Of a stretch of 34,773 nucleotides of DNA, positions 8,056 to 16,598 are shown piece by piece. Position 1 is the stretch's first letter. Every line of letters begins with the position of its first letter. The notes beneath the pieces were generated by a model. It saw only the letters and a list, made by a program, of their open reading frames with translations, searched no databases and had not been told where the DNA came from. Made by a program: the position numbers and the translations under genes. Origin of the DNA: an uncultured Clostridia bacterium (GTDB lineage Bacteria; Bacillota; Clostridia; Oscillospirales; Butyricicoccaceae); NCBI GenBank assembly GCA_945872165.1, contig CAMBYS010000003.1, positions 1 through 34,773 of the forward strand. Direction: 5' to 3'.

Positions 8056-8370
8056 CTGTGGGAACGATGCTCCGCACGACCGCGCACCGGCCGTTGAACG
8101 GGGCGTCATACCTGGTACCCGTGCCGTCCTGCTCAGACTCGGCATTCCTGCGGCACACAATGGGTTCTGCTTAATGCTGCTCGGTTCCCCGCCTGACATG
8201 GTTCACAGTCCACTGTTGCGAAGGACCGAATCTTCATCGCCCTCCGGCAAAGGTCAAACAATACACGCACCGCCCGCGGGCCGGGATTCACTCCTGCTAT
8301 AGCGGATTGCAGGTGCAGGACACCGCTGCCGTCCCAGCTAGCGCAGCCATGCGGAACATCGTTTCCCCAA
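8056..8370 (-). ncRNA. ffs: Signal recognition particle RNA, long form with Alu domain
   Basis: Minus strand contains GGCAGCGGTGTCCTGCACCTGCAATCCGCTATAGCAGGAGTGAATCCC (Alu domain) and GAACCATGTCAGGCGGGGAACCGAGCAGCATTAAG (domain IV). 5' and 3' ends are complementary (GGGAAACGATGTTCCGCA / TGCGGAGCATCGTTCCC). Located upstream of dnaX, as in Bacillus. Ends approximate. Confidence 0.96.
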
Positions 8371-10430: not shown

Positions 10431-12875
10431 TTATCCGGCAAGCGCCGTATGCCACCAGTCGGAAATCCGGCTGAACATCACGCCAACCTGTGTCGTCTCC
10501 GGTACCGTTGTGTCCGGCGTTGTGGGCGTTGTTGGCGTATCCGGCGTGGTATCATCATCTGTTGTGGTATCATCATCCGTATCCGCAGGCTCTGTGACCT
10601 CCGGCTTTGGCTTTGGCCTTGGCTTTGGCTTCGGCGGTGAATAATGTCCTCTCGGACTGGTAACACGGTCACCCTCGCCAATCGGGTCATTGTCACCCTC
10701 ATAGCAATAATACTCGTCGGTTACCTCCACATACAGCGGGAACAGACGGGTCAGATCCAGCATGGAAGCACTGCTGTACCGCCATTTATGCAGATCACAT
10801 TCCTCCTCCGGCACATCATCCACATAGAACATACCGGTTTCAATCCGGCTGCCGCGCACATCGCCACGGCATGCCCGTGCCGGTGAGAGACCGCTGTCCA
10901 GACAGTATTCTGCCTCCACAAAGGTATCTTCCTCCGGCTCCTCAAAATGTTTGTCCGGTTTGTCCTCATGCAGCTGATCCATGACAGCGGACCAGGCCTG
11001 TACCGCCGGGTTCGGAGACAAATCGGGCAGACCATACTGCTCATCATAGCCAAACCAGCAGACACCTACATAATAGGGCGTATAGCCCGCAAACCAGCGG
11101 TCCTTGTTATCCGTGGTGGTACCGGTCTTGCCCGCCACGTCAATGCCATAAATCCGTGCCAGCCTGCCGGTGCCGTCTTCTACTGCATTGGTCAGCAAAT
11201 CATTGACATAATATGGTGTGGATTCCGGGTGTTCAAATACCTGCTGCGGCGTATTGTCCTCGTTGGAGAGGATGGTTTCGCCATTGGCATCCACAACCTT
11301 GGTATAGCTGATGGCTTCCGAATAATTGCCATAGTTCGCCAGCGCAGTGTATGCCTGTGCCATTTCACGAACCGTTGCACCTTCGGTCAGCGCGCCCAGC
11401 GCCATCGGCGCATAATTCACATCATTATTGGCGGACAGCGTGGTAAAGCCCAGCTTTTCCGTCATGAAATTATATGACGCCTGGGGTGTCAGCATCTTGA
11501 GCACCTGCACGGCGACGGTATTGGTGGAATCCGCAACACCCTGCATGATGGTGGTCTGTCCGTCATACCGGCGGTTTTCATTACGTGGCCATGCCGAACC
11601 GCTCAGATTGAATACCGGCATATCCGTAACTACGGAATAGGGGGTAATCAGCTTCTGGTCGATTGCCGGGGCATATATGCTCAGCGGCTTGATCGAGGAG
11701 CCCGGAGACCGTTTGGACTGGGTGGCACGGTTGAGCACAAGGCTCTCGGTTTTCTCTCCGCGTCCGCCCACAACGCCCCGGATCTGTCCGTTGGTGGGAT
11801 CCAGCACCATCATGGCGGATTCCGGACGCATGCCGTTTTCCGAAATGCTGGGGAAATTGCTGTTGTCCTCATAAACCGATTCCATGGTTTCCTGCACATC
11901 CATATCCACGGTGGAATAGATGGACAGGCCGCCGCTGTTGACCACAGTGCGTGCATAGGTTTCGGAATAACCCAGCTCCTCCTGCAGATCCTTGACCACA
12001 TCTGAAATCACCATGTCGGTAAAATAAGAATATGCCTTGTTTTTCTTCTGGCCGGAGGTATTCTCCTCATAGGCAAGCTCTTCCGCTACGGCTGCATCAT
12101 ATTCACTCCTGGAAATATAGCCCTGAGAATACATCTCGGAAAGCACAGCTTGCTGGCGTTCCTTTGCCTGCTCAGGATACTTGAAGGGATTATATGCCGC
12201 CGGGTTCTGGGTCAGTCCGGCAATCAGGGCACATTCCGCCAGATCCAGCTCGCTGACCGGCTTGTTGAAATAGGTCTTTGCCGCCGTCTGTACGCCATAG
12301 GCATTCTTGCCGAAGTAAATGATATTCATATACAGCTCAAGGATGGTTTCCTTGCCGTCAACCTTTTTCTCCAGCGTCAGGGCGCGCATGATTTCCGTCA
12401 CCTTGCGCTTGACGGAATAATCGTCATCATCTGTCATGTTTTTGACCAGCTGCTGGGTGATGGTGGAGCCGCCGTAGCTGCTGCCGCTGGGAAGAATCCA
12501 GTTCAGCGCCGCACCCATGGTACGTTTCCAGTCCACGCCCTTGTGCTCATAGAAGCGTTTGTCCTCAATCGCAACAAATGCATCCGACAAATCCTCCGGT
12601 ATGTTATCCATATCGACCCATTCACGGTTTTCCTCGCTGGCAAGCTTCTGCAGAACCTGCTGATTGCCGCTGTCATCGTTGTAATAAATGACGCTGTTGA
12701 ATTTCATCGAAAGACTGCTGATATCCAAATCAGCCTCCGGCATAATTACCAGATTCAAATACGCAACAAATGCGCCAAGGCATATGGTTGCGGTTGTCAG
12801 ACCGATGAGAAACAGCGTTAGTATGGCAAATCCGACTTTTCCGGCTCTGCTTTTTTTCCTGCGTTTTCTGGCCAA
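10431..12875 (-). CDS. Class A penicillin-binding protein (PBP1A-type, transglycosylase/transpeptidase)
   Basis: GT51 region AFVAIEDKRFYEHKGVDWKRTMGAALNW...GGSTITQQLVKN...; transpeptidase motifs RSPGSSIKPLSIYAPA, SDTN-like DSTN, KTGTT. Pro/Lys and Thr/Asp-rich C-terminal tail. Confidence 0.96.
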   Translation of the reverse strand: MARKRRKKSRAGKVGFAILTLFLIGLTTATICLGAFVAYLNLVIMPEADLDISSLSMKFNSVIYYNDDSGNQQVLQKLASEENREWVDMDNIPEDLSDAFVAIEDKRFYEHKGVDWKRTMGAALNWILPSGSSYGGSTITQQLVKNMTDDDDYSVKRKVTEIMRALTLEKKVDGKETILELYMNIIYFGKNAYGVQTAAKTYFNKPVSELDLAECALIAGLTQNPAAYNPFKYPEQAKERQQAVLSEMYSQGYISRSEYDAAVAEELAYEENTSGQKKNKAYSYFTDMVISDVVKDLQEELGYSETYARTVVNSGGLSIYSTVDMDVQETMESVYEDNSNFPSISENGMRPESAMMVLDPTNGQIRGVVGGRGEKTESLVLNRATQSKRSPGSSIKPLSIYAPAIDQKLITPYSVVTDMPVFNLSGSAWPRNENRRYDGQTTIMQGVADSTNTVAVQVLKMLTPQASYNFMTEKLGFTTLSANNDVNYAPMALGALTEGATVREMAQAYTALANYGNYSEAISYTKVVDANGETILSNEDNTPQQVFEHPESTPYYVNDLLTNAVEDGTGRLARIYGIDVAGKTGTTTDNKDRWFAGYTPYYVGVCWFGYDEQYGLPDLSPNPAVQAWSAVMDQLHEDKPDKHFEEPEEDTFVEAEYCLDSGLSPARACRGDVRGSRIETGMFYVDDVPEEECDLHKWRYSSASMLDLTRLFPLYVEVTDEYYCYEGDNDPIGEGDRVTSPRGHYSPPKPKPRPKPKPEVTEPADTDDDTTTDDDTTPDTPTTPTTPDTTVPETTQVGVMFSRISDWWHTALAG

Positions 12876-13113: not shown

Positions 13114-13440
13114 ATGAACCGTACCGTTGCTGTATTATCGCTGTGCTGCATCACGCTGTTTTCCTTTCTGATATACCAGCAGCTTTCCTTCCGTTCGGAT
13201 TCCGTACCGGTTTCCGATCCCATTTCCGCAGAGGAGCAGACAGATCCCCAGCCACTGTACCTTGTCCGGGCAGAAAATGGTGTCCTGTGCATCTATCCCT
13301 ACGGCTCGGATACCCCTGCGGAGGTAACCGATATCCGTCTTTCCTCCCTGCGGGAATATGACCAGCAGCTGATGAAGCAGGGCTTTCCCCTGTATTCTGA
13401 AGAGGATCTTGCCAGCTTTCTGGAGGATTTCGGCAGCTGA
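13114..13440 (+). CDS. Small membrane-anchored protein of unknown function (BofC C-terminal-like pattern)
   Basis: One N-terminal TM; LVRAENGVLCIYPYGSDTPAEVTDIRLSSLREYDQQLMKQGFPLYSEEDLASFLEDFGS resembles small clostridial proteins with this C-terminal motif (family recollection only). Confidence 0.7.
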   Translation: MNRTVAVLSLCCITLFSFLIYQQLSFRSDSVPVSDPISAEEQTDPQPLYLVRAENGVLCIYPYGSDTPAEVTDIRLSSLREYDQQLMKQGFPLYSEEDLASFLEDFGS

Positions 13441-13493: not shown

Positions 13494-14057
13494 TCAGCCC
13501 ATGGGAATCTCTGTCTGCGGGCGCACGCCGCAGTACCGCAGCAGATAATCCTGCTGGCACCGGTCAAAATACTGCTCCGCCTGCTCCAGTCCCTGAAATT
13601 CCACCGACGATGCCGGCTGTCCGATGACCTGCTGGTCATACCGCAGATACCGTACCAGTGCCTTGCGGTTTGCCGACGGAATTTCATCCACGGTCAGGCA
13701 TGCGCTCCAGAATTCATCTGCACATGCGGCAGACAGCAGCAGCTTCCGTTCCCCGCCATGGTCCAGATGCACAACAATCAGGCCCACCGGCCGGCAGCGC
13801 ACCAGCGTCATCGCCGGCAGAGGCTGGCTGCACAGCAGCACGGTCTCCATCGGCATGCCCTCCGGCGTGCAGGTGCGGGGCAAAAAGCCGGTATTGTGTG
13901 GTGCACCAATATTGGAATCACTCAGATGATCCAAGCACAGCAGGCCCGCTGCACCGTCAAAGGACAATACCGCTGTACTGCCCATGCTGTTCGCCGTAAA
14001 AATCGTATATTCTTCCCTGCGCATCAGTTCCGGCTGTAAATCATGCCAAATATTCAT
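13494..14057 (-). CDS. Divergent family I inorganic pyrophosphatase paralogue, probably catalytically inactive
   Basis: NIWHDLQPELMRREEYTIF...GLLCLDHL...APHNTGFLPRTCTPEGMPMETVLLCSQPLPAMTLVRCRPVGLI...GERKLLL follows the PPase layout, but the signature DGDPxD is EGMPME. Confidence 0.7.
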   Translation of the reverse strand: MNIWHDLQPELMRREEYTIFTANSMGSTAVLSFDGAAGLLCLDHLSDSNIGAPHNTGFLPRTCTPEGMPMETVLLCSQPLPAMTLVRCRPVGLIVVHLDHGGERKLLLSAACADEFWSACLTVDEIPSANRKALVRYLRYDQQVIGQPASSVEFQGLEQAEQYFDRCQQDYLLRYCGVRPQTEIPMG

Positions 14058-14204
14058 GTACTTCCCTCGCTTTGGATTCTTCGGTTTCTGATTTGTGCCA
14101 GTATCGCACCTCTCCTGTCTGTTTCACCGGCAGGTGCGAAAATATGTTTTGCTGCCGCAAAGGATTTCCTGTGAAATCACACGGCTTGCGCCGCGGCTGC
14201 ATTT

Positions 14205-14232
14205 ATTATAGCATAAACCCTTAAAAATGCAA
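14205..14232 (-). promoter_or_regulatory. Promoter of the PPase-like gene
   Basis: Minus strand -35 TTGCAT (14227-14232), 16-nt spacer, -10 TATAAT (14205-14210). Confidence 0.7.
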
Positions 14233-14252
14233 ATTTGAAACGGTTATCCGGA

Positions 14253-14286
14253 CAAAAAACAGCACCGTCAACAAAAACGGTGCTGT
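14253..14286 (-). terminator. Intrinsic terminator of the SLH/lysozyme gene
   Basis: Minus strand ACAGCACCGT-TTTTGTTG-ACGGTGCTGT followed by TTTTTT. Confidence 0.85.
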
Positions 14287-14306
14287 CAATCTGCGTTTTT
14301 TCGGAA

Positions 14307-15764
14307 TCAGGTAAAATATTCTGTCAGAATATATGCCATTTCCCCACGGGTGCATGCCTTCTTCGGATAGTAATAGCTGGATTTTTCCAAAGCAACATAT
14401 CCCAGCATGCCCTTGTAATTTGCCCACTTGACGGCTTTGAGTGCCCAGGAGGATACACTGGATGCATCCCTGAAGCTCAGCGCCTTGCCGGAGGTAGGCT
14501 TGCCGGCATAATTGTGCATGATTGCCACAGCCTGCTCATGGGTGACATAGTCATTGGGGCCAAATTTCTGGGAAGAATAGCCGGATACATAGCCCTTCTT
14601 ATATGCCCAGAGAACTGCCTTATAATACCATGCGCTCTTGCTGACATCCTTGAATGAAAGTGTGCCGCTGACTGCCGGGCAACCTGCACGGCTGTACAGA
14701 ATCTGGGCTACCTGTGCACGGGTCAGACTGTTATTGGGAGAAAACTTGTTCTCACTGGTGCCAACCATCATGCCATGGTCATAAACATACTGGATGGAAT
14801 CTTTATACCATGCGCTGGAGCTGATATCGCTAAAGATCGCGCTGACGGAAGAATTGTCAGATACTGTTATGCTGCCAAATTCCGGCCAGTAGGTATTTTT
14901 TGCCTGATTGCCCCGGGATACGGCAACGCTGGCACGATTTGCCGGTACTTCATAGTAATAGCACCAGTAATAGCCTGCGTCATATGCACCGGTGGAGGAG
15001 TTGGCATGGGTTTTCATCTTGTTGTTGATGGTCAGGCCATTCCACAGATAGACACTGGTATTGGCAGACAGCTCCTTTTTCAGATAATTGAGCTGTCCGG
15101 TCAGGGAAGTCCAGCTGTAACCATTGCTGCTGCACCAGTTCTTCATCGCATCAAACCGTTCGTTGTGCCACTGGCAGATGCCGTAGCTGGTGCCGTAATC
15201 GCCATAGCAATTGGGATTGAAATTGGATTCTGCCTTGATATTGGCAAGTACGCCGCTGGCTGCCGCTGCATTGTATCCCATCTTCTTGATGAAAAATTCA
15301 AAAATCGTATAGGCATTTGTGCTTGCTGCGGACTGCTGGGAACGAACCGAACCCTCTGGATCCGCTGCAGATTCACTGCGCTGTGCCAGAACATAGGGAA
15401 GCTCCGCTGCCGTGTCAGCCAGGACATATGTATTCTCATCCCACTGGGGGATATACTCATAATAGAAATCGTCCGTGGTGCTGTAATCACTGCGGTTCAC
15501 CCAGGTGACCGGAATCTCTGCCACCGTACCGTCAGCCAGAGCTGCCGTTACTGCCTGGGGCATCTGGGCAGTCAGCTCCGCCTCATCCTGTCCCAGTGTA
15601 AATGTGATGGTGCCAATTTCCTGGCCCGCCTGTTCAAAGCCTGTGATTGTCTTTACTGCCGTTGTTTCCGGTGCAATGTCCGAAGCAAAAGCTACTGTCG
15701 GCAGCACCCCGGCAATGAAAGATGCTGTTAAAACCATTGCGCCGATCCGCTTCACTGTCATCAT
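14307..15764 (-). CDS. Secreted protein with phage-tail-lysozyme-like domain and three SLH domains
   Basis: Signal peptide; Ig-like N-terminal region (ITGFEQAGQEIGTITFTLGQDEAEL...VTW); lysozyme-like domain (IFEFFIKKMGYNAAAASGVLANIKAESNFNP...YGICQWHNERFDAM); three SLH repeats (FSDISSSAWYKDSIQYVYDHGMM..., FKDVSKSAWYYKAVLWAYKKGYV..., WALKAVKWANYKGML...). Confidence 0.88.
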   Translation of the reverse strand: MMTVKRIGAMVLTASFIAGVLPTVAFASDIAPETTAVKTITGFEQAGQEIGTITFTLGQDEAELTAQMPQAVTAALADGTVAEIPVTWVNRSDYSTTDDFYYEYIPQWDENTYVLADTAAELPYVLAQRSESAADPEGSVRSQQSAASTNAYTIFEFFIKKMGYNAAAASGVLANIKAESNFNPNCYGDYGTSYGICQWHNERFDAMKNWCSSNGYSWTSLTGQLNYLKKELSANTSVYLWNGLTINNKMKTHANSSTGAYDAGYYWCYYYEVPANRASVAVSRGNQAKNTYWPEFGSITVSDNSSVSAIFSDISSSAWYKDSIQYVYDHGMMVGTSENKFSPNNSLTRAQVAQILYSRAGCPAVSGTLSFKDVSKSAWYYKAVLWAYKKGYVSGYSSQKFGPNDYVTHEQAVAIMHNYAGKPTSGKALSFRDASSVSSWALKAVKWANYKGMLGYVALEKSSYYYPKKACTRGEMAYILTEYFT

Positions 15765-16034: not shown

Positions 16035-16598
16035 TCAGGCAGCCGCAACCAGTTCCAGCAGCGGAATGCCTGTCTCAAACAGCCTCTTGTAGCATGCTGC
16101 ACAACTTCGGTATGCATCAAACTGTTTCTGTGCTTCTTCTGCATCTCCATAGCATTTCCAATGCCCGCAGCAGGTATAATTCCTGCCCTGGTTATGTATG
16201 AACCCAATGACATCCCCCAGCGGATATCCCAGAAAAATTCCGATTTCATGGGGAAAATCCCGCTGGATACACAGCCTCCGTGCCAGCTGGCACAGCACCT
16301 GATCCATGCTCCGGGACATGTCATAGCCCTCTCCGGACAAAAATGCCCGGATTTCCTGCTGCTCCAGTACCTGCTGTACCCATGCCCGGCGGCAGACATA
16401 AATCAGGCAGCTTCCGGTACTCCGGCACCGTTTCAGCACCCGGATCTGCAGTCCGCTGGGCTGAAGCTTCCGGTTCCATGCAAACACGGCGGAAAACAGC
16501 TCCGGTGTTTCCTCACAGCGGAACAGATTTGCCGGCTTGAGTCCGGCGAGCGTGGGGGAACAGGATTCTACCAGCATTGCTTCCAGTGTATGATTCAT
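16035..16598 (-). CDS. DUF3793 family protein
   Basis: FLGYPLGDVIGFIHNQGRNYTCCGHWKCYGDAEEAQKQFDAYRSCAACYKRLFETGIPLLELV, the characteristic DUF3793 C-terminal pattern. Confidence 0.85.
   Translation of the reverse strand: MNHTLEAMLVESCSPTLAGLKPANLFRCEETPELFSAVFAWNRKLQPSGLQIRVLKRCRSTGSCLIYVCRRAWVQQVLEQQEIRAFLSGEGYDMSRSMDQVLCQLARRLCIQRDFPHEIGIFLGYPLGDVIGFIHNQGRNYTCCGHWKCYGDAEEAQKQFDAYRSCAACYKRLFETGIPLLELVAAA

Follow-up and report, generated by a model that had tools for sequence, protein, structure and literature searches.

The stretch of DNA analysed here (34,773 nucleotides, referred to as the window in its full length) comes from an uncultured Clostridia bacterium of the Butyricicoccaceae, and one of its open reading frames raises the question of what a pyrophosphatase-like protein is kept for once its catalytic residues are gone. 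Few housekeeping enzymes are as conserved as family I pyrophosphatase, and an earlier note on this DNA had read the frame as a divergent inorganic pyrophosphatase (PPase) without most of its catalytic residues, repurposed for sensing or binding. The frame in question is the following:

13494–14057, minus strand: coding sequence of the putative PPase pseudoenzyme (187 aa, ATG start)

Family membership and predicted fold

To establish what the protein is, it was compared with curated profiles and with proteins of solved structure. The Pfam profile PF00719 (inorganic pyrophosphatase) matched it with 52.1 bits (E = 8e−14), above the curated gathering cut-off of 23.5, and a phmmer search of PDB chains gave 37 matches, all of them PPases, the best with an E-value of 4.7e−12. 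These matches place the protein among the homologues of family I inorganic pyrophosphatase and bear out the family I layout that the earlier note had recognized. Moreover, the motifs quoted there were all present, namely EGMPME in place of DGDPxD, NTGFLP in place of NYGFIP, AVLSFD in the KYE(I/L)D region and LDHL in place of (V/L)DRF. The NCBIfam equivalog NF002317 was matched with 39.2 bits against a cut-off of 200, which a canonical relative (L013) also failed to reach with 149.8 bits.

The structure prediction that the earlier note had proposed as a check supported the PPase fold. An AlphaFold model built on an alignment that included canonical PPases from viral contigs reached a pLDDT of 90.2 and a pTM of 0.86, compared with a pLDDT of 34 when only seven proteins of the genus were used; thus, the confident model depends on the canonical PPases in the alignment, yet it agrees with the sequence evidence. 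Its nearest solved structures found by Foldseek were all PPases (TM up to 0.87/0.91), the best match being 6mt1_A (E = 1.9e−14, TMq/TMt 0.87/0.90, rmsd 1.8), and a PPase barrel is therefore the predicted fold. In particular, the plant PPA1 structures 6mt1 (Medicago) and 4lug/5ls0 (Arabidopsis), deposited as inorganic pyrophosphatases, share this fold with the model over about 180 residues (TM 0.82–0.91) at a sequence identity of 18–20%. In these plant structures, the catalytic site is expected to be intact.

Loss of the active site

The protein was aligned (MAFFT) with the E. coli PPase and with 21 canonical ppa proteins from other genera of the same bacterial family, the homologues being drawn from 87 genomes of that family. 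A copy at a viral-contig locus was 99% identical to the E. coli sequence used. Thirteen of the 14 active-site residues of the E. coli enzyme were found to be substituted in the window protein (E20A, K29V, E31S, R43H, Y51A, Y55T, D65E, D67M, D70E, D102R, K104L, Y141D and K142Q), with only D97 retained. At Y141 the register of the alignment is uncertain by one residue, Tyr140 being adjacent, which leaves the conclusion unaffected. In contrast, the 14 residues were intact in all 21 canonical proteins of the bacterial family, these columns being completely invariant among them. Furthermore, out of 74 columns invariant among the canonical proteins, the window protein kept 29, but only one of the 14 belonging to the active site (hypergeometric P = 0.005), so that the loss is concentrated on the active site in this alignment. 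Judged by the conserved metal- and pyrophosphate-binding and catalytic residues, the protein thus falls outside the family I PPase enzymes. The claim that most catalytic residues had been lost was, if anything, understated, and the alignment by eye on which the earlier note had based it proved correct wherever a check was possible.

The same site was lost in the nine proteins of this kind found in the genus, while it was kept in all 21 canonical relatives. Position D67, which we take to be the general base, equivalent to yeast Asp117, was occupied by Met or Leu in all nine. For yeast Asp117, a role in water activation has been described (PMC11210485). Five of the 14 positions had changed to a single new residue common to the nine orthologues (A22, T56, R104, D141 and Q142), and two cysteines, C112 and C120, were also invariant among them. 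Compared with the canonical Ppa of the same bacterial family (e.g. L013, G026), the window protein is alike in length, in its MNIWHD(I/L) N-terminus and (Y/F)CGxRP C-terminus, in its predicted barrel fold and in the NxGFxPRT framework, but it is only 24–31% identical, and 18 positions invariant among the canonical proteins carry another, equally invariant residue in the putative pseudoenzyme clade.

Distribution and selection

An uninterrupted orthologue was found in nine of the 12 genomes of a Butyricicoccus-like genus, whose organisms include 'Candidatus Butyricicoccus stercorigallinarum' and 'uncultured Butyricicoccus sp.'. These copies were 71–88% identical, had no internal stops and formed a single clade (support 100/100), throughout which the active site had been lost in a like manner. 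Regarding the remaining three genomes, any PF00719 gene was absent from G035 and G038, which are well assembled, and the gene was not detected in G041, which is 65% complete. Beyond the genus, searches of 394 genomes of the order and 391 genomes of the class showed the same gap: the proteins of the genus scored 330–398 bits, and the next matches about 100 bits or less. In these two sets of roughly 390 genomes each, the lineage was seen only within the genus. Below the gap, the active sites inspected were those of the aligned members of the bacterial family, all canonical ppa, and independent degenerations of the PPase site may have occurred elsewhere. No member of the lineage was found in viral contigs, and a search of plasmids gave only distant matches (22–27% identical).

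Most pairwise dS values were saturated, and the estimates of dN/dS therefore rest on five unsaturated pairs, for which values of 0.085–0.34 (NG86) and 0.08–0.17 (YN00) were obtained, indicating purifying selection on the gene. Moreover, 84 of the 176 shared columns were invariant among the nine orthologues, and their identity to the window copy (72–86%) resembled that of the adjacent PBP1A (76–83%). The low dN/dS, the lack of stops and the conserved locus are those of a gene under purifying selection and not of a pseudogene.

The locus and its neighbours

The gene lies among the following features of the window:

10431–12875, minus strand: class A penicillin-binding protein with transglycosylase and transpeptidase (pbp1A), a conserved neighbour
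13114–13440, plus strand: small exported-looking protein of 108 aa, convergent with the putative pseudoenzyme gene
14061–14068, minus strand: Shine-Dalgarno-like GAGGGAAG, three bases before the ATG, as read from the sequence
14205–14233, minus strand: promoter-like TTTGCA-17-TATAAT, its −10 preceded by TG, some 150 bases upstream of the ATG, a consensus match only
14258–14287, minus strand: terminator-like hairpin (12 pairs) of the upstream lysozyme/SLH gene
14307–15764, minus strand: phage-tail-type lysozyme and SLH cell-wall protein, a conserved neighbour in all carriers

The gene order was the same in all carriers, with pbp1A and the convergent small gene, the putative pseudoenzyme gene and the lysozyme/SLH gene, the last of which encodes an N-terminal Big_4-like region, a lysozyme domain (PF18013) and three SLH repeats. 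The gene for the 108-aa protein adjoined the putative pseudoenzyme gene in every carrier and stood beside pbp1A in both well-assembled non-carriers; in these two genomes, pbp1A and the small gene were kept and the putative pseudoenzyme and lysozyme genes were both absent, an FtsH-like gene standing there instead in G038. A gene for a DUF3793 protein (E = 3e−53) was also seen near the locus (window 16035–16598, minus strand).

Despite these conserved neighbours, an operon link with the cell-wall genes was rejected, as the terminator-like hairpin and the convergent gene make co-transcription unlikely, and the arrangement suggests that the gene is transcribed alone. It should be considered that terminator-like sites were as frequent in the region as expected by chance (two seen vs. 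2.1 expected), and promoter-like sites nearly so (three seen vs. 2.2 expected). Among the relatives, conservation in the upstream alignment was limited to the promoter and the ribosome-binding site, the latter with an AGGGA/AGGAG-type motif. An upstream RNA element was also sought and rejected, neither that alignment nor the Rfam search showing one; the latter gave, for the whole window, only one tRNA and the bacterial large SRP RNA (RF01854, 174 bits, window 8080–8346, minus strand).

Other pyrophosphatases in the carrier genomes

The earlier note had proposed to look for a canonical ppa or ppaC elsewhere in the genome. No canonical ppa was found in any of the nine carriers, the gene under study being the sole PF00719 gene in each of them, and a family II enzyme was present. 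This was a CBS-domain pyrophosphatase (CBS-PPase, PF02833), unrelated in sequence and fold to the family I protein and consisting of DHH/DHHA2 domains with a CBS and DRTGG insert. The copy of the window's own genome lies on contig C86 (G000:C86:6043-7734), and all nine carriers had this enzyme, the orthologues being 77–88% identical to that copy, with the motifs NPDTD, DHN, DHH and SRKKQ intact. The carriers' CBS-PPases formed a clade of their own (support 100/99), to which the other CBS-PPases of the bacterial family were mostly 36–46% identical, one (G065) reaching 57%. CBS-PPases are controlled by adenine nucleotides (PMC10742508). The CBS-PPase probably supplies the pyrophosphate (PPi) hydrolysis that the family I protein has lost.

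As for the other genomes of the genus, G035 had only a different CBS-PPase and G038 had none, a membrane H+-PPase being present in both, while the incomplete G041 had a member of the carriers' CBS-PPase clade. Across the 11 better genomes, this clade was found in nine of nine carriers and in neither of the two non-carriers (exact P = 0.018, uncorrected for ancestry). An anti-correlation with the membrane H+-PPase inside the genus was also considered and dismissed as not significant (two of nine carriers vs. two of two non-carriers, P about 0.11).

Two further observations concern pyrophosphatases in general. The window's own genome has another CBS-PPase (L003, G000:C90:5572-8165), in which SRKKQ reads SRKEQ and which has a long branch; it is possibly a second, partly degenerate pyrophosphatase. 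Furthermore, searches with the PPase protein P0001, PF02833 and PF03030 found no pyrophosphatase in the near-complete genomes G044 and G049 (genus g4) and G012, a gap due either to divergent forms or to missing contigs.

Proposed role and alternatives

Overall, the window protein is very probably a PPase-fold pseudoenzyme, a reading to which the sequence comparisons and the predicted structure both point. A specific non-catalytic binding or structural role appears somewhat better than an even bet; it is from conservation only that we infer such a function. According to this explanation, the hydrolysis of PPi would have passed to a CBS-PPase in an ancestor of the carrier species, so that Ppa would no longer have been needed as a catalyst. 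The PPase barrel would then have been kept while the whole metal and pyrophosphate site was lost, and selection would maintain the old protein for binding a partner or as a structural or oligomeric component, the retained function presumably residing on parts of the surface distant from the old pocket. Conservation was strongest in residues 79–92 (PLPAMTLVRCRPVG), 15–29 (EEYTIFTANSMGSTA) and 112–121 (CADEFWSACL), and the 128–143 helix bore several invariant lineage-specific residues. In the E. coli PPase, this helix carries Y141 and K142 together with inter-subunit contacts, and it lies next to the active site as well as to the interface between subunits. Given this pattern, and a pocket no better conserved than the rest of the protein, protein–protein binding or a structural oligomer is favoured over PPi sensing.

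A narrower version, in which the inactive Ppa would have become a specific partner, regulatory or structural, for the carriers' CBS-PPase clade, is quite improbable: this clade is common to the nine carriers and absent from the two well-assembled non-carriers, a distribution for which common ancestry could suffice. If it were true, a displaced enzyme would now help to control the unrelated enzyme that succeeded it.

Among the alternatives, a sensor is unlikely, although it fares best. The degenerated pocket would bind PPi, a nucleotide or a metal without hydrolysis and signal by conformational change, in line with the retained fold (AlphaFold, Foldseek) and with the retention, in most of the nine orthologues, of D97 and of an acidic side chain at D70; moreover, pseudoenzymes often retain ligand binding. 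However, the phosphate-binding residues R43, Y55, K104, Y141 and K142 were lost in all nine, and in place of K29 the orthologues had V, I, A or, in three cases, R. In addition, the mean entropy of the 14 old active-site columns was 0.66, compared with a protein average of 0.56 (P = 0.73), and a pocket conserved no better than average weakens the PPi sensor. Hence, from the proposal of a pseudoenzyme repurposed for sensing or binding, the pseudoenzyme stands on profile, fold, residues, conservation, selection and the alternative pyrophosphatase, while sensing at the old site has become less likely on the entropy.

That the same cleft now catalyses a different reaction on another substrate, by means of the lineage-specific invariant residues, is very unlikely. 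The five new residues fixed at old active-site slots and the invariant C112 and C120 would agree with it, but the pocket columns corresponding to E. coli 29, 65 and 104 vary freely among the orthologues, unlike a catalytic site, and the operon context points to no pathway. The absence of any PF00719 gene from the well-assembled G035 and G038 might suggest a functionless ppa relic on its way to being lost; such a decaying pseudogene was rejected as highly improbable because of the purifying selection, with all nine copies free of stops, dN/dS well below 1, 84 of 176 columns invariant and both the ribosome-binding site and the locus conserved. Finally, an active but divergent pyrophosphatase with alternative ligands is barely credible, since the kept fold and the D65E and D70E substitutions of the window protein, which could in principle bind metal, are set against Met or Leu at D67 in all nine orthologues, Arg at D102, Ala at E20 and a replacement pyrophosphatase in every carrier.

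Precedents and significance

Pseudoenzymes in general are a known kind of protein, and no description of a family I PPase pseudoenzyme was found in the literature searched, which comprised a few searches of open-licence papers. A plant FAD synthetase is fused to an inactivated FAD pyrophosphatase (PMC9678776). It is similar in that a pyrophosphatase-type domain has been retained after catalysis was lost, but differs in its substrate, whereas the protein described here is a stand-alone family I PPase homologue. The fold of FAD pyrophosphatase is, besides, unrelated to that of family I PPase.

In practical terms, the PF00719 match in the carrier genomes would lead to the annotation of an active inorganic pyrophosphatase. 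A whole lineage appears to have retained the protein and dropped its chemistry, with the CBS-PPase as a clear candidate successor. It would thus offer a clean natural example in which to ask why a housekeeping enzyme is retained after its catalysis has become dispensable.
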